Below the pieces are notes generated by a model. The model saw nothing but the letters and a program-made list of their open reading frames with translations. It searched no databases and was not told the DNA's origin. The position numbers and the translations under genes are program-made. 62,970 bases of DNA, from NCBI GenBank assembly GCA_014189895.1, contig BJFQ01000006.1, forward strand, positions 1 to 62,970, in the 5' to 3' direction. Positions 30,720 through 38,250 of this stretch are shown here, piece by piece. Every line of letters starts with the position of its first letter. Within the stretch, counting starts at the first letter, position 1. The DNA comes from Acidobacteriota bacterium. Lineage in GTDB: Bacteria; Acidobacteriota; Holophagae; Holophagales; Holophagaceae.

Positions 30720-32438
30720 TTACGTTTCCGATATGGGGGCGATTTTACCTTCGCTGTCGAGATGACGACTCTGAATATGATATTTATAGCCTTGCTCGGT
30801 CAGAAAAAGCTGGCGATTACGGGCAAATTCCTGTTCGGTCGTATCCCGGCTGATCAAAGTATAAAAATAACTCACATTATCTATATCTTTAGGTCGAAGA
30901 ATGCGACCCAAACGCTGGGCTTCTTCTTGCCTCGAACCGAAGGTTCCTGAAACTTGGATCGCAACACTCGCATCGGGTAAATCAATCGCGAAATTAGCGA
31001 CCTTACTGACAATCAATATTTTTAATTCACCCTTTCTGAAAAGATTGAAAAGTCTTTCGCGTTCTTTCGCGGGAGTCTGACCCATCAGCACAGGGGCTTG
31101 AAAATACTCGGAGATGATTTTAAGTTGTTCAATGTATTGACCAATAATTAAAACTGAATTCTGAGGGTGCAGAGCTAGAATTTCAGCAATCACCTTCATC
31201 TTGAGTGAATTTTCCGAAGCGATTCTGAAGCGTTGGCGCTGATCAGACACGGCATAATTCATTCTTTCTTCATTGGGAAGCGGAATTCTAATTTCAAGGC
31301 ATTGGGCCGTGGCAATGAATCCATCTTTCTCTAGGACTTTCCACGGAACATCGACTCGCTTAGGCCCAATCAAAGAAAAGACATCTTCTTCTTTGTTGTC
31401 TTCGCGGACTAAGGTGGCCGTTAAACCGAGTCGACGGCGGGCTTGGAGTTCCGCGACGGCTCTAAAAATAGGAGCCGGGAGCATGTGGACTTCATCGTAG
31501 ATAATGAGTCCCCAGTTGGAGGCTTCAAAGATTTTGAAGTGGTCAAAGGGTCCATTTTTGTCTTTACGATAAGTCAATATTTGATAGGTTGCGATCGTGA
31601 CGGGACATATTTCTTTACTTTCACCGCTGTAGAGACCGATTTGATCTGCTGTCAAAGTTGTTTTATCGAGTAATTCTTGTTTCCATTGTTTAACCGCTGT
31701 TACATTGGTCGTCAGAATGAGCGTATGGGTTTGCAAGCCACTCATACAGGCCATCCCGATAACTGTTTTGCCCGCTCCACAGGGAAGGACAAGGACGCCA
31801 GCCCCCCCTTCGGGACCGCCCCCTGCATGAAAGACATCGGCGGCGGCTTGTTGGTATTTTCTCAAAATAAAAGGTTTCTTGCTCTGCTGTAACTGGGATC
31901 TTAGTTCAAAAGACAGAGGATGACCCTCTTTAAAGCCCGCTAAATCTTGAACAGGATGGCCCAATCGAATAAGTTGAAGCTTGATTTCTCCTCGAGATCC
32001 CTCGCGGATATAAATTCCTTTCTGATCACCAAAGGGCTCTTGGAGAAAATCTTGGAGTGTTTTTTGATTCGAGATTTCCCAAAAAAGACCACGATCTTCA
32101 ATGTCAAGGGCTAAACGATTATTTTTTTTAATTAATTTAATTTTTCCATACCGAGTGGAATGATCTTTGATTTCTTGAGTAATATTTTGTGGGATTTCAT
32201 ATTTAGACCACTTTACTAGGATTTCAATAATTGTTTCTTCGAGGATTCCAGATGCGGAGGCGTTCCAAAGACTCAAGGGGCTGATGCGATAAGTGTGAAT
32301 ATGTTCCGGGCTTTTGATCAATTCAGAGAAACGAGAAATCTCATCTCGGACTCTCTCAAATTCTGGATGGGCAACCTCCACCAACAAAGTTCGATCACTT
32401 TGGACAATCAAGGGATTATCGGGTCGAAGAGGAGTCAC
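30720..32438 (-). CDS. XPB/Rad25-type DNA helicase
   Basis: A 572-residue SF2 helicase. Residues 1-135 form the XPB/Ssl2-type helicase-associated domain (NPLIVQSDRTLLVEV, SPEHIHTYRISPLSLWNA). The motor has P-loop 219-225 (LPCGAGKTV), DEVH at 315-318, TATLVRED with the XPB-specific RED motif at 345-347, and motif VI QRLGRILRP. It likely opens DNA in repair or transcription-linked processes; the bacterial role is not well defined. The start is a GTG with no strong RBS. Its partner candidate, sharing the associated domain, is the gene at 36325 on the other strand. A Bax1-like nuclease was not seen. Confidence 0.93.
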   Translation of the reverse strand: MTPLRPDNPLIVQSDRTLLVEVAHPEFERVRDEISRFSELIKSPEHIHTYRISPLSLWNASASGILEETIIEILVKWSKYEIPQNITQEIKDHSTRYGKIKLIKKNNRLALDIEDRGLFWEISNQKTLQDFLQEPFGDQKGIYIREGSRGEIKLQLIRLGHPVQDLAGFKEGHPLSFELRSQLQQSKKPFILRKYQQAAADVFHAGGGPEGGAGVLVLPCGAGKTVIGMACMSGLQTHTLILTTNVTAVKQWKQELLDKTTLTADQIGLYSGESKEICPVTIATYQILTYRKDKNGPFDHFKIFEASNWGLIIYDEVHMLPAPIFRAVAELQARRRLGLTATLVREDNKEEDVFSLIGPKRVDVPWKVLEKDGFIATAQCLEIRIPLPNEERMNYAVSDQRQRFRIASENSLKMKVIAEILALHPQNSVLIIGQYIEQLKIISEYFQAPVLMGQTPAKERERLFNLFRKGELKILIVSKVANFAIDLPDASVAIQVSGTFGSRQEEAQRLGRILRPKDIDNVSYFYTLISRDTTEQEFARNRQLFLTEQGYKYHIQSRHLDSEGKIAPISET

Positions 32439-32577: not shown

Positions 32578-35328
32578 ATGAATTCTATGAAGCGACTTTT
32601 CACTGTGATGATGATTGTGCTTTTAGGTCAAGTCATTTGGGCACAAAATACTACCCGAGATAATGAATTAGGAAGCCCCGGAGAAAGACGAAGGAATTTA
32701 CCTGCCCGAGTCGGTCCCAATGTTTTAAAAGGCCATGATTTGGCAGAAGAGAGACAAAAATGGGCTCTAGAGTGGTTTGGGCCTACGTCCATCGAATATC
32801 TCGATGCAATTAATGAAATAGCCGTCAAAGAAGTCAGCAAATATCGATCTAAAGTTTCTGTGCCTGTTTTTTCAGGATCATCCGCTGTTTTAACTTATCC
32901 ACTTTTGGGAGGGGCCATTGGACCTTTGGGCGGAGGAACGTGGGTCAATATTGGACCTTTTGGTAATTTGATTGATCCCACTTGGCCGGACCATGACACT
33001 GGTCGCGTGACTCGCATTGTTCCTCATCCAAATTGGCCTACGACTCCCACGCTCTATGTATCTTTTGCAGGGGGGGGTGTTTTCAAATGCACAAATGCGG
33101 ACCCCGCTGCAGCGGCAACGGGTTGGTCTTGGGTTTCTATTACGGACAGCCTTCCCACCTCTAGTTCTGATGGAAGTCAAGCTGTCGGAGCTTTGGCCAT
33201 CGATCCTAATAATGGCAACACGCTCTACTTAGGTTCGGGAGATTTCGTGGATGGCGAGGGACGCGGCTTTTACAAATCTATAGATGGGGGTACCACTTGG
33301 TTTGCCGCGACTGGTTTGGGTGCAGCAACTCGAAGTCATGACATTCTTGTGATGAATGACGGTCGTATTTTTTGGGCAACCAATGATGGCCTTAAGGTGA
33401 GTTCATCGAATACCTCCACAAGCTTAACGTTTGTTCCAGTCGGTGTTGCACAAGGTATTACTGGGCTGGTATGGACCATAAAAAAACTCGATCAGAATAA
33501 ATTAGTCTGTAGCGTTGAAGGCTCAACAGGTTCTATTTTTTACTCAACCGATGGGGGCTCGACTTGGAGTTCTTCCTCTATCTCAGGAATTCCAGGAGGC
33601 TCTTCTTCGACTACGAATGGTCCAATATACCGAATTACTCTAGCCGCTAATGGCTCAAAGGTGGTCGGTATTTTTGAGACGGGAAGCGTGATATCCAAGG
33701 GACTGCTCGTCAGTAACAACGGGGGAGCCACCTTTACCTATCAAGCCCAAACCGGTTCAGGCGCTACTGGTCTTTTCTATGGCAGCGGGGGGTCTGGTGA
33801 CGGAGGTCAGGATTGGTATAACCAACTCCTTGCTATTGATCCCAACAATGGAAATAATGTATTCGTGGCTGCTAATTTAGCCTCCTATCGAAGCCAAGAC
33901 GGTGGGTTGACCTGGCAGCAGATGACCCATTGGTATGGGGGAGGAAAAGTCTACACGCATGCCGACCACCATACGGCAGCGTGGTCATCTAATGGACAGA
34001 TCTTACTGATTGGAACCGATGGCGGATTTGCTATCTTGCGCGATCCTTTCCGTTCAGTTGTACCCACTGCGGTGGGAACGACAGGTGTTCCCGCCGACGT
34101 CACCTTTGTAGACCATCGTCGCAATTATGGTCTGGCTACTCATCTGATTTACAATCTAGGATCGACCAATGCTACTACTCCAACGGACTCTAAGTATCGA
34201 GTGATCATCGGCCTTCAAGATAACGGAACCCGAGTGAGACAAGCCGTAGATAATACCGGACTAGTTGGTACCTCGGGGTTGCTCCAAAATAGCGGAATAT
34301 TCGAGGATCAGATCGGAGGTGATGGTTTTTCCTCATTGATTCACCCCGATAATGGAAACCTCATGCTCGGCTCACTTTACTACACGCGTATTTTTAAAAG
34401 CACAAATGGAGGAACGTCGTCGTTCCCAGAGTCGAATTCTGGAATCGTAGGTGCTGGGTCTAGTTCAACGTCCCCTTTTTACCCCAAAATGCATTTAGGT
34501 AATTCCATCGCCCCTGATTCTGTCTACACCCAAACTAATTATGTACTTTATAAAAGTGGTAATTTTGGATCAACTTGGTCTGCATTACCCATGACGGGAT
34601 ATCCAACGACTAGCACTATTCGTAATTTTCATGTCTCGGAGGCCAATCAAGCCTTGCATGTCATCGTGGGAAGTAATGGTACTTTTTATAAAGCTCGAAT
34701 TCCTGAATTAAATAATGATGCAGTGATCGATGCTCTAGATTTACTCGTTGTGGCGAAACATCATGGGTCATCAACGGCAACATCTAGAAAATCGGCTGAT
34801 GTCAACGGTGACGGAAGCGTCGGAGATTCGGATATTACGGCCACAATTGGCGTTCTCGACGGGGCTTCGAATAACATTGGTACGTGGACCCAATTAGGTG
34901 GAACAGCCAATCCTGCCCTGAATAATTCATGGGTTTGGGTTGATACCACCAATGAACAAATTATGTACATCGGATCGGTCACGCGTAATTTAAGTAGCAC
35001 GGGACTTCAGTCAAAATTATATAAATCCATAGACGGTGGAACCACATGGTCTGCTATCGGCGGTGCTTCCAGTGGACTTCCCTTTGGTGTACCCGTCCAT
35101 GTAATCAAGAATGTCCCTGGAGATGGTACTAAGCTATTCTGTGGAACCGATTTCGGTATGTATTATTCAGAAAACTCTGGAGGCACATGGGTCCGCTATG
35201 GTGCTGGTCTACCCTTAGTGGCCGTTAGAGATATCTATATTGCTCCGGATAAGTCCTTCATTCGAATTGCCACTTACGGAAGAGGTGTGTGGGAAATTAA
35301 TAATCCTACTTACACTGCTTCTGAATAA
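32578..35328 (+). CDS. Secreted Asp-box (BNR) repeat protein with internal dockerin-like insert
   Basis: A 916-residue exported protein. A signal peptide with basic MNSMKR start and AQ-type cleavage (around residue 23) is followed by at least eight Asp-box motifs (S-x-D-G-G-x-T-W types such as SIDGGTTW, STDGGSTW, SQDGGLTW), the sortilin/VPS10-like propeller pattern. At about 710-760 there are two EF-hand-like calcium loops, NNDAVIDALDLLVVAKHHG and ADVNGDGSVGDSDI, which look like a type I dockerin. It lies inside the propeller series, not at an end. GGAG precedes the ATG. A lipoprotein with a possible cohesin-like fold follows after 14 bp. No enzymatic motif was found; binding or scaffolding is an inference. 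Confidence 0.85.
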   Translation: MNSMKRLFTVMMIVLLGQVIWAQNTTRDNELGSPGERRRNLPARVGPNVLKGHDLAEERQKWALEWFGPTSIEYLDAINEIAVKEVSKYRSKVSVPVFSGSSAVLTYPLLGGAIGPLGGGTWVNIGPFGNLIDPTWPDHDTGRVTRIVPHPNWPTTPTLYVSFAGGGVFKCTNADPAAAATGWSWVSITDSLPTSSSDGSQAVGALAIDPNNGNTLYLGSGDFVDGEGRGFYKSIDGGTTWFAATGLGAATRSHDILVMNDGRIFWATNDGLKVSSSNTSTSLTFVPVGVAQGITGLVWTIKKLDQNKLVCSVEGSTGSIFYSTDGGSTWSSSSISGIPGGSSSTTNGPIYRITLAANGSKVVGIFETGSVISKGLLVSNNGGATFTYQAQTGSGATGLFYGSGGSGDGGQDWYNQLLAIDPNNGNNVFVAANLASYRSQDGGLTWQQMTHWYGGGKVYTHADHHTAAWSSNGQILLIGTDGGFAILRDPFRSVVPTAVGTTGVPADVTFVDHRRNYGLATHLIYNLGSTNATTPTDSKYRVIIGLQDNGTRVRQAVDNTGLVGTSGLLQNSGIFEDQIGGDGFSSLIHPDNGNLMLGSLYYTRIFKSTNGGTSSFPESNSGIVGAGSSSTSPFYPKMHLGNSIAPDSVYTQTNYVLYKSGNFGSTWSALPMTGYPTTSTIRNFHVSEANQALHVIVGSNGTFYKARIPELNNDAVIDALDLLVVAKHHGSSTATSRKSADVNGDGSVGDSDITATIGVLDGASNNIGTWTQLGGTANPALNNSWVWVDTTNEQIMYIGSVTRNLSSTGLQSKLYKSIDGGTTWSAIGGASSGLPFGVPVHVIKNVPGDGTKLFCGTDFGMYYSENSGGTWVRYGAGLPLVAVRDIYIAPDKSFIRIATYGRGVWEINNPTYTASE

Positions 35329-35342
35329 TATTGAGGATCATC

Positions 35343-36182
35343 ATGAAACAGTCATATCAACGTTTTTGGGTTTTAGGTGCCTTAGTAAGTCTTATGATCG
35401 CCTGCGGTGGAGGAGGTGGAGGTGGTGATACGGTAGTCGTAGTACCTCCACCCTCCATCACAAGTTTTATAGCGGGAAGCGCTTCCATCAATGCCGGCCA
35501 AGCTACGACGCTCACGGCTATTTTCTCTAATGGCACTGGTACGGTTTCGGGAGGGCCTGCTCCAGTCGCCATCCTCTCAGGAGTCCCTATCTCGGTAACC
35601 CCGACGACGACCACCACCTACACCTTGTTCGTTACTAATACAGCTGGCGCATCGGTAACAAGCTCGGCAACAGTCTCGGTGACTTCAGCCTCAAGATCCT
35701 TGAACTACACAGATCCAACCATAGGCATCTATAAACTCATCAGGAACACTTCTTTAAGCAACTCTAGCCATCTCGTGCTCGACCTAGTAAGTAGTGATAC
35801 GAATTTAGTCAGTGGTATCGGATTCAATATTTCAACCGACACTACAAAAGCTACCTGGGTTAAGGTGGCTTCTGCTGATGCCACCTTCGTACAAAATGGA
35901 ACTATTTTCAATCTAGGACCTTCTCCACAAGTTCAATATGGAAAAATCACTACATCAGGGGTCTCTTCGACTATTCTCTCAGCGGCTCTTGCCTTGAAAG
36001 GATCGTCCGGAGTAGCCATTAATGGCAGCGGGGGTGTCTTAGCACGTATCGCCCTCGATCCCGTGGGAACAGGGGCCGTTGGGGCGGTCCCTTTAACAAT
36101 CACTAAGGCTCAAGCCATAGTCCAAGGCATCGCTAATCCATCAACTATTACAGTTTATGTTGGAACTTTAACGCTCAATTAG
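35343..36182 (+). CDS. Lipoprotein with Ig-like and possible cohesin-like domain
   Basis: A 279-residue lipoprotein: basic start (MKQSYQRF), hydrophobic span and the lipobox region LMIACGGGGGGG with cysteine around residue 21, then a Pro/Val linker. Residues about 35-120 form an Ig/PKD-like Thr/Val-rich domain. The C-terminal half (LVLDLVSSDTNLVSGIGFNI, then GSSGVAINGSGGVLARIAL and the VPLTITKAQAI strand) resembles cohesin folds by pattern, though this is by eye. The ATG has GAGG upstream, 14 bp after the preceding gene, and a terminator follows. It may anchor the preceding dockerin-bearing protein at the cell surface. Confidence 0.7.
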   Translation: MKQSYQRFWVLGALVSLMIACGGGGGGGDTVVVVPPPSITSFIAGSASINAGQATTLTAIFSNGTGTVSGGPAPVAILSGVPISVTPTTTTTYTLFVTNTAGASVTSSATVSVTSASRSLNYTDPTIGIYKLIRNTSLSNSSHLVLDLVSSDTNLVSGIGFNISTDTTKATWVKVASADATFVQNGTIFNLGPSPQVQYGKITTSGVSSTILSAALALKGSSGVAINGSGGVLARIALDPVGTGAVGAVPLTITKAQAIVQGIANPSTITVYVGTLTLN

Positions 36183-36202
36183 GCTCCCGAAATAGGTTGG
36201 AT

Positions 36203-36229
36203 AAAAAGAGGGTTTCAAACCCTCTTTTT
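36203..36229 (+). terminator. Rho-independent terminator after the cohesin-like lipoprotein
   Basis: A perfect 13-bp inverted repeat, AAAAAGAGGGTTT and AAACCCTCTTTTT around one central C, would fold with a GAGGG/CCCTC core and a five-T tail. It lies 20 bp past the lipoprotein stop and ends the two-gene operon. Confidence 0.85.
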
Positions 36230-36324
36230 ATATATCCTCTCCCGGGGATCACATAAGTATTTTTTGTTATGCATTTGAATATCTCAATGAGACACTATAA
36301 GGTAATTCTTTGGGTATTGTTTGC

Positions 36325-38250
36325 ATGAATGAGGTCTTAAATCATTTCCAACTCCTCTCCAATTGTACGGAAGGCGAATTGGAATTGATCTGCGAACGAC
36401 GACATATAACCATCCCCATCCGATGGAAAGATAGACCGGATGGATTAAAATCTTTAATCAAAAGCATGATCTACCATCTCGAGGATCATCATCACTTATC
36501 GGGCGTCTTGGCTTCACTCCAAGAGACCGAGTTGATTGCCTTAAAGCATCTGACCCAGGGACACCAACCGCCTATCTCAATCGTTCCTGCTTTATTCTCT
36601 CTGGGCCTAATTCTCCCAGTTAGAGCTCAACATCGAGATGTATGGATTCTATCGGAACGGGTCCGAGCTGCGCTAGATGACTTTGACGATTCGGCGTTGT
36701 CGCTTCAGGCTCCCGTAGGAACTCAGCTTAATCACAGTGGTTCTTTCCGGTTTTCTTTGGCGCTTGTCGTCATTCTCCTCCGTTGTGTGCATGGGGTGCG
36801 CGTCCTCAAAGCTGGATTACCTGCCAAGAAAGAGTTAGACCATATCACGCGAAATAATACTCTCTTCTCTGCCAATCTTTCGGGTGAAGAAGATGCTTCT
36901 TTGCTCTTTACCTTACTCCACCGACTTGGCTTGTTATGGCAACGCGAAGGACGAGTCGAGACGTTAATTCCCGCAGTCTTAGCTCATCCACCTAGGTGGA
37001 TTGCTGAGCGCACCTTCTCTTATTTGGTGGAACATGATTTAGATGCTTGGCAAATGCCAATGTCTGAACATCGCATCTTCTTTCTCCAGCACCTTTTAGA
37101 TCGACCCAAGCAAATTGTAAAAGTCGATATCTTTTTGCATTTCTTGGGTACGCTTCGCCAATTTGATGCCCAAAAGATCAGAGAACAATTCATTCCTTTC
37201 CTTTACCGTATGGGTTTATTGGATATGGATTTAAATGGTCATTTTTTAGCTCTTTCAGAGCATGGCCTAGCCTTAACCGAAGAATATATTCACAGAAATC
37301 CTTCATCGACTCGCGCCCATTGGGCTTTGTTTGAAGCCACTCAAGACTTGGTCATTCAGCCGAATTTAGAAATCCTGACCCCACTCCTCCAAAACCCACA
37401 CCGCCTTCTTCGACTTGCCGAAATTTCATCATTAGAATCCGTCGATACGTTGGCTAACTTTAAGCTCTCCCATGATTCCATTATCAAAGCGGTCGATTTA
37501 GGACTCACAATTGGAGAAATAAAAGATACGTTAGGTTTGAAAGTTCCATCCACAGTGGCCGATTTGCTAACAGATCTTGATCGTCGAATTGGCGAAGTCG
37601 AAATCAAGCAGAATGCGCGGCTTATTGAAACGAAAACCCCAGAGCTCGCAAAAGAGATCATGGTGCGCCCCGAATTTATCTCTTTAGGTCTGAAACAGAT
37701 TGGTCCCAATCTCATTGAAGTTCATGGGCAAGGCAACATTAATACGTTCCTCAAAGAGGCGGGTTACCTTCCTAAACCGTCTCGTTTTCTCCCGCTAAGC
37801 ATTGATGCACAAGAAGATCTTTATCTTTGGTCCCTGGCGGGCCTAGCCTTCATCGATGAGAAAGGCCTCAATCATCATTTAGATCCGATCCGTCAAATGA
37901 TTCGACAGTCCCTTCAGCAGATTCATGATGAAAGCCCTTCCCTGTTCCAGCAAATACAACGTCGCATCCCTATGCTCCATCTGTCGGGAGAGCAGCAGCC
38001 CATGGAAGAAACGAGGGGAATTCTAGACTACGCAACCATACATAATTTAGCCGTCGAAGTAACCTATTTACCTCCGGCGGCACACCGCACACAACTTCGA
38101 CGACTCAGTCCCAAATCAATCGAAGAAGATACGTTAGTGGCTTTTTGCCATTTACATCAGGAAGATATGGTTTTCAGGCTTAAACGCATTCATGGCGTCC
38201 GGCTTCTCAATGAAAAAGGATGGAACCGCGATACGCCTCAGGTTGGCTAG
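36325..38250 (+). CDS. Helicase-associated domain protein (Rv0862c-like), likely XPB partner
   Basis: A 641-residue protein without helicase motifs. Residues about 340-480 (TQDLVIQPNLEILTPLL, LLRLAEISSLESVD, KLSHDSIIKAVDLGLTIGEI) match the helicase-associated XPB/Ssl2-N-type domain also found at the N-terminus of XPB. The N-terminal 300 residues are helical and the C-terminal end (HLHQEDMVFRLKRIHGVRLL) resembles a WYL-like module. In mycobacteria the homologous Rv0862c sits beside the XPB gene. Here it is 3.9 kb away on the opposite strand. The ATG at 36325 is preferred; a TTG at 36310 is also open. It overlaps the convergent anti-sigma gene by 4 bp. Confidence 0.75.
   Translation: MNEVLNHFQLLSNCTEGELELICERRHITIPIRWKDRPDGLKSLIKSMIYHLEDHHHLSGVLASLQETELIALKHLTQGHQPPISIVPALFSLGLILPVRAQHRDVWILSERVRAALDDFDDSALSLQAPVGTQLNHSGSFRFSLALVVILLRCVHGVRVLKAGLPAKKELDHITRNNTLFSANLSGEEDASLLFTLLHRLGLLWQREGRVETLIPAVLAHPPRWIAERTFSYLVEHDLDAWQMPMSEHRIFFLQHLLDRPKQIVKVDIFLHFLGTLRQFDAQKIREQFIPFLYRMGLLDMDLNGHFLALSEHGLALTEEYIHRNPSSTRAHWALFEATQDLVIQPNLEILTPLLQNPHRLLRLAEISSLESVDTLANFKLSHDSIIKAVDLGLTIGEIKDTLGLKVPSTVADLLTDLDRRIGEVEIKQNARLIETKTPELAKEIMVRPEFISLGLKQIGPNLIEVHGQGNINTFLKEAGYLPKPSRFLPLSIDAQEDLYLWSLAGLAFIDEKGLNHHLDPIRQMIRQSLQQIHDESPSLFQQIQRRIPMLHLSGEQQPMEETRGILDYATIHNLAVEVTYLPPAAHRTQLRRLSPKSIEEDTLVAFCHLHQEDMVFRLKRIHGVRLLNEKGWNRDTPQVG

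Follow-up and report, generated by a model that had tools for sequence, protein, structure and literature searches.

Layout of the two-gene locus and the propeller

The window, a stretch of 62,970 nucleotides from an Acidobacteriota bacterium of the family Holophagaceae (contig BJFQ01000006.1), carries on its forward strand a gene encoding a secreted 916-residue propeller protein, followed directly by a lipoprotein gene (Table 1). The coordinates assigned to this pair in an earlier note, made from the sequence alone, agree with the ORF list, and the 14 nt between the propeller stop codon and the likely ATG start of the lipoprotein were confirmed; the mechanically called ORF of the lipoprotein (35331..36182) starts at a TTG at position 35331. 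Of the promoter and terminator that had been proposed to frame the pair, the terminator was recovered as a strong hairpin after the lipoprotein gene, and a consensus scan upstream of the pair found no promoter above chance. An XPB-type helicase gene (30720-32438) and a separate gene for a Helicase_C_3-domain protein (36310-38250) flank the pair; both products contain the same Helicase_C_3 domain, and this arrangement is kept across genera.

Table 1. Positions of the genes, domains and terminator of the locus in the window, with the evidence for each
Feature	Position	Strand	Evidence
Secreted putative cargo, signal peptide and GH74/sortilin-like Asp-box propeller, 916 aa	32578..35328	+	ORF, NCBIfam, PDB profile, Foldseek
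Internal dockerin insert, aa ~708-764	34699..34869	+	Dockerin_1; PDB sequence match; comparison with relatives
Pfam Dockerin_1 stretch, aa 711-754	34708-34839	+	Pfam
Putative receptor lipoprotein gene	35343..36182	+	ORF and sequence; signal peptide with lipobox
Ig-like spacer of the lipoprotein, aa ~36-118	35436..35684	+	Matches to aa 15-123
Predicted cohesin-fold domain X, aa 119-283	35685..36179	+	AF2, Foldseek, hhalign
Intrinsic terminator hairpin at the end of the two-gene unit	36201..36231	+	-23.2 kcal/mol, z -4.6

The family of the propeller emerged mainly from profile and structure comparison. In NCBIfam, the protein matched F510_1955 with 66.9 bits, under the cut-off of 175 for that family, and Pfam propeller signals were weak, with BNR under its cut-off. 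Run against the PDB, a profile built from the propeller and its relatives matched GH74 xyloglucanases and sortilin (E 1e-19), and the best Foldseek matches of the propeller model were GH74 tandem propellers (E 2e-24). Both searches support the two-propeller fold of GH74, in a model of modest confidence (pLDDT 61); identity to the GH74 xyloglucanases and sortilin-type tandem propellers that share this fold is about 15%. The count of at least eight Asp-boxes in the earlier note holds only under relaxed motifs, given that Pfam BNR stays below its cut-off: five close matches are present (aa 234, 323, 379, 439 and 817), along with about three weaker ones recognized by eye.

An internal dockerin and a predicted cohesin-fold domain

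A type I dockerin had been noted at about residues 710-760 of the propeller protein, and Pfam Dockerin_1 (PF00404) identifies it there with 31.1 bits, above the curated cut-off of 22.9; the top PDB sequence match of this region is a dockerin, 6kg9. By inspection, most of the acidic and Asn ligands are kept in the two F-hand calcium-loop repeats, ELNNDAVIDALD and DVNGDGSVGDSD, and comparison with relatives shows that loop 1 has Glu at its first position and is missing the usual Gly, and that a Gly replaces an Asp in loop 2. The dockerin forms an insert of about 57 residues, bounded by ‘..GTFYKAR’ and ‘NNIGTWTQL’, inside an Asp-box hairpin. In relatives, the propeller is uninterrupted at this site, which bears out the proposed placement within the propeller series, and the dockerin is C-terminal, often behind an Ig-like spacer; the window and the two other genus members have lost the C-terminal copy and possess the internal one. 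We conclude that the internal position is the derived state of the window's genus. Several other genera share the gene order PgpA, XPB helicase, propeller, lipoprotein, Helicase_C_3 gene, sigma factor and uracil-DNA glycosylase, so that the locus is probably ancestral and the dockerin was relocated in place. To our knowledge, no other dockerin is inserted inside a propeller blade. The AlphaFold2 (AF2) model of the full-length protein was uninformative on the insert (pLDDT 20-36), its alignment having been built without dockerin fragments because these were misaligned when added to the propeller sequences.

The downstream gene product has the signal peptide and lipobox expected from its earlier description as a lipoprotein (...SLMIA/C-GGGG, Cys codon 35403-35405). 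The lipobox is followed by an Ig-like spacer, of a type repeated in many Holophagaceae proteins (matches to aa 15-123 fall in long repetitive ORFs), and, at the C-terminus, by a domain of about 165 residues, hereafter X. The identity of X is central to the interpretation of the locus: in cellulosomes, dockerin binds cohesin, and the C-terminal half of the lipoprotein had been called cohesin-like by eye.

This call gains support at the level of structure and of profiles, and finds none in sequence libraries. Neither single-sequence nor profile searches matched X to any entry in Pfam, NCBIfam or the PDB sequences, and Pfam Cohesin (PF00963) matched neither the window lipoprotein nor any of 29 relatives. 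The AF2 model of X, based on 34 aligned sequences, reached pLDDT 91.5 and pTM 0.88. When it was searched against the PDB with Foldseek, cohesins were returned almost exclusively: the top 41 matches are all cohesin or cohesin-like modules, including the non-cellulosomal cohesin of Archaeoglobus (2xdh), and the best is 5nrm_A (E 5.6e-6, prob 1.00, TMq 0.52), with moderate TM-scores to cohesins of about 0.4-0.6; a carbohydrate-binding module first appears at rank 42.

As a reference for profile-profile comparison with hhalign, 23 Pfam-identified cohesins from other Acidobacteriota were used. The score of X against this profile was 24.5 with 29 X sequences, 27.4 with 89, and 29.6 after trimming (E 2.3e-4). 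None of 200 column shuffles reached the score of X (maximum 18.1), the reversed profile scored 10.1, and three Ig-like families from the same genomes scored 12.8-15.5 against the cohesin profile. The register of the alignment is sensible, with the cohesin YDP..L strand on the aDttkvtW strand of X and the cohesin SGxGxLxxLxF strand on the LARvALdlk strand. AF2, Foldseek and the profile-profile comparison all point to the nine-stranded cohesin beta-sandwich, and on these models X is a cohesin-fold domain of a family unseen by sequence libraries. Searches with the whole lipoprotein also produced weak antibody light-chain matches (E 0.002). They cover both the Ig-like spacer and X and are lost when the profile is used, and were accordingly treated as general beta-sandwich similarity.

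Conservation of the pair and variety of the cargo

A query with X alone detected 36 loci among 84,980 species genomes, including Geothrix fermentans, G. campi, G. terrae and many Holophagaceae assemblies. In 33 of these, a dockerin ORF lies directly upstream of X; the other three comprise a locus at a contig border (L126), one with no dockerin (L134), and L135, where an M4 peptidase ends in a degenerate dockerin that was seen by eye and then detected with a wider profile. Over all loci examined, a dockerin ORF was detected immediately upstream of 77 of the 90 distinct X domains. One further X domain is cut off from its upstream neighbour by a contig edge, and no dockerin was detected beside the remaining 12, although 5 of these 12 follow ORFs that, by eye, end in a degenerate dockerin-like tail. 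In 75 of the 77 paired proteins, 3 to 17 residues separate the dockerin from the C-terminus; the other two are proteins of the window's genus. A lipobox pattern is present in 86 of the 90 X proteins, the remaining 4 having a plausibly placed Cys. Two outcomes that the earlier note had named as refuting its reading, no cohesin in a fold search and no conservation of the pair, are thus contradicted by these results. Such pairs also occur in assemblies labelled Bacillota and Proteobacteria (L129 and L135), reflecting either mis-binning or transfer.

Dockerin and X also coincide at the level of whole genomes. X is present in 32 of the 37 sampled Holophagaceae genomes, and the five genomes without it also lack Pfam dockerins; among the 32, a Pfam dockerin was found in 26, and a family-specific profile added 5 of the remaining 6. 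None of the 37 genomes contains a Pfam cohesin over the cut-off, whereas Pfam cohesins do occur in genomes of other Acidobacteriota families. Outside Holophagaceae, X was detected in only three other genomes of a 396-genome sample of the phylum. Tallied over the searches, X adjoins 31 of 39 dockerin matches in Holophagaceae (E <= 0.001), and the window's genome encodes exactly one dockerin and one X, which are adjacent.

Chance adjacency of the two genes, coupled with a spurious structural resemblance of X to cohesins, would account for its missing sequence-family match; with dozens of conserved pairs, synteny of the locus across genera, a fold search dominated by cohesins and a profile score above all shuffles, this explanation is highly improbable.

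The pairing is not absolute. A few X genes are without a dockerin neighbour (L134, L178, L179 and L191), and in one genus (g11; L167, L168 and L170) the propeller of the ancestral locus still has its C-terminal dockerin, with no X beside it. The X genes of these genomes are located elsewhere, suggesting that the receptor acts in trans. In clusters at L185, L187, L189 and L199, two X genes enclose a gene for a secreted protein that ends in a degenerate dockerin-like stretch; such clusters may form a divergent two-receptor subclass.

The proteins that carry the dockerin are extracellular and diverse, with peptidases and propellers predominating. Typing with Pfam of 20 proteins chosen as not clearly similar to the window's propeller identified thermolysin-like M4, M6, sedolisin-type S53 (pro-kumamolisin), papain-like C1 and C39 peptidases and one S8 match, as well as sortilin/BNR propellers and Ig/TIG proteins. 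Across 75 pairs, the distances among dockerins and among X domains are correlated (Mantel r 0.77, against a maximum of 0.26 in 5000 permutations). The correlation between X and cargo similarity is 0.54, and with cargo held constant the partial r for dockerin and X is 0.67. Common inheritance of the gene pair contributes to this correlation, which is therefore taken as support, not as proof.

These distributions also bear on whether X binds dockerins at all. X could be cohesin-like in fold and have another role, such as the binding of glycans or of a surface by a lipoprotein whose gene is co-transcribed with that of a secreted hydrolase, while the dockerin has some other binding partner or acts as a calcium-stabilised tail. 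The carbohydrate-binding module ranked 42nd by Foldseek, the rapid divergence of X within the window's genus and the standalone X genes are in keeping with such a role. However, X accompanies the dockerin across unrelated cargoes, genomes without X are also without Pfam dockerins, and no other recognisable cohesin was found in the Holophagaceae genomes. We consider a non-binding X unlikely.

A candidate surface-attachment module and its relation to known systems

The locus is probably a two-gene surface-attachment module that consists of a dockerin-bearing cargo and a cohesin-fold lipoprotein receptor. This reading, a membrane-anchored receptor with its secreted cargo, had been put forward in the earlier note and is strengthened by the predicted cohesin fold of X and the conservation of the pair. 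Both proteins would be exported and meet outside the inner membrane, where the lipidated cysteine would anchor the lipoprotein in a membrane, presumably facing outward. The cohesin-fold domain would then bind the calcium-loaded dockerin of the neighbouring gene product, perhaps one to one, and this grip would retain the cargo at the cell surface; the purpose may be the retention of secreted hydrolases. In Holophagaceae generally, the dockerin forms the C-terminal tail of a propeller or peptidase, whereas in the window's genus it has moved into a propeller loop. With the pair recurring across Holophagaceae, including Geothrix, it probably represents an overlooked means of retaining secreted proteases and other proteins at the surface. 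A more specific proposal, to which we give about an even chance, is that X domains constitute a separate cohesin family of one-cargo membrane receptors, each encoded beside a dockerin-tagged peptidase or propeller, with specificity set by gene neighbourhood in place of a scaffoldin, and with one genus docking through an internal blade loop.

Known counterparts include the cellulosomal type I pairs of Clostridium, Acetivibrio and Ruminococcus, which share the two-F-hand type I dockerin and the cohesin fold of the predicted partner. Cellulosomes combine a multi-cohesin scaffoldin with glycoside hydrolase cargo, whereas the predicted receptor here is a single-domain lipoprotein with a cohesin unrecognised by Pfam: all loci examined encode one X per ORF, and the cargoes are mostly peptidases and propellers. 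Single cohesins and dockerins outside cellulose degradation also include those of Archaeoglobus fulgidus (2xdh) and the modules surveyed by Peer et al. 2009; these are reported to have been recognised by sequence, in contrast to the X partner, which is invisible to the libraries, lipid-anchored and fixed beside the dockerin across Holophagaceae.

Cohesin-dockerin attachment of secreted peptidases to the cell surface has been proposed, likewise from genomes only, for the Planctosome of freshwater Planctomycetes, which uses a large anchoring protein and an adaptor (PMC6461901), whereas each cargo here would have one small lipoprotein encoded by the adjoining gene. In ANME archaea, as in Holophagaceae, dockerins occur on diverse extracellular proteins outside cellulosomes; ANME archaea encode scaffoldin-like multi-cohesin proteins (PMC9012536), and none were found in the Holophagaceae loci. 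No natural fusion of dockerin and X was found either. Non-cellulosomal cohesin-dockerin attachment is thus known as a kind, including the proposed attachment of peptidases in Planctomycetes. New here are a library-invisible cohesin-fold family, the usual gene pair of one receptor per cargo across Holophagaceae, and a dockerin inside a propeller blade; the openly available literature searched yielded no description of the dockerin-X pair in Holophagaceae or Geothrix.

Orphan dockerins are easily left unexplained, and in this case the missing partner is apparently the product of the neighbouring gene, hidden by sequence divergence; structure prediction of genes adjoining orphan dockerins is an approach usable elsewhere. 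The pair suggests how the little-studied Holophagaceae keep secreted peptidases on their surface, and Geothrix species that can be cultivated would be a source of compact one-to-one docking pairs for biotechnology. It also presents a docking tag that apparently works, or formerly worked, from within another domain.

X of the window is about 54% identical to X of both genus relatives (L041 and L042), against 89-91% identity for the dockerin, 87-92% for the propeller and 72-94% for all neighbouring genes, a disparity unexpected for a tightly co-evolving interface. The lipoproteins of L041 and L042 are 85% identical to each other, which indicates that the window's lineage sped up the evolution of its receptor or replaced it. 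Together with the standalone X genes and dockerins, this divergence would allow that the pair is decaying in the window's lineage, the dockerin having become a structural calcium insert of the propeller and X drifting away from its earlier function; such decay is compatible with surface attachment in the family as a whole. Decay would fit the internal dockerin position, unique to this genus, and the substitutions in the calcium loops, but the insert is conserved among the three genus members and keeps a Pfam score of 31 bits, X is intact with its lipobox and a confident fold, and both genes are retained in a genome of 1.17 Mb; we regard decay as rather unlikely. This genome is 97% complete, its genus relatives measure 0.9-1.2 Mb and the rest of the sampled family 1.3-5.2 Mb, making the window's genus a reduced lineage that retains the pair.
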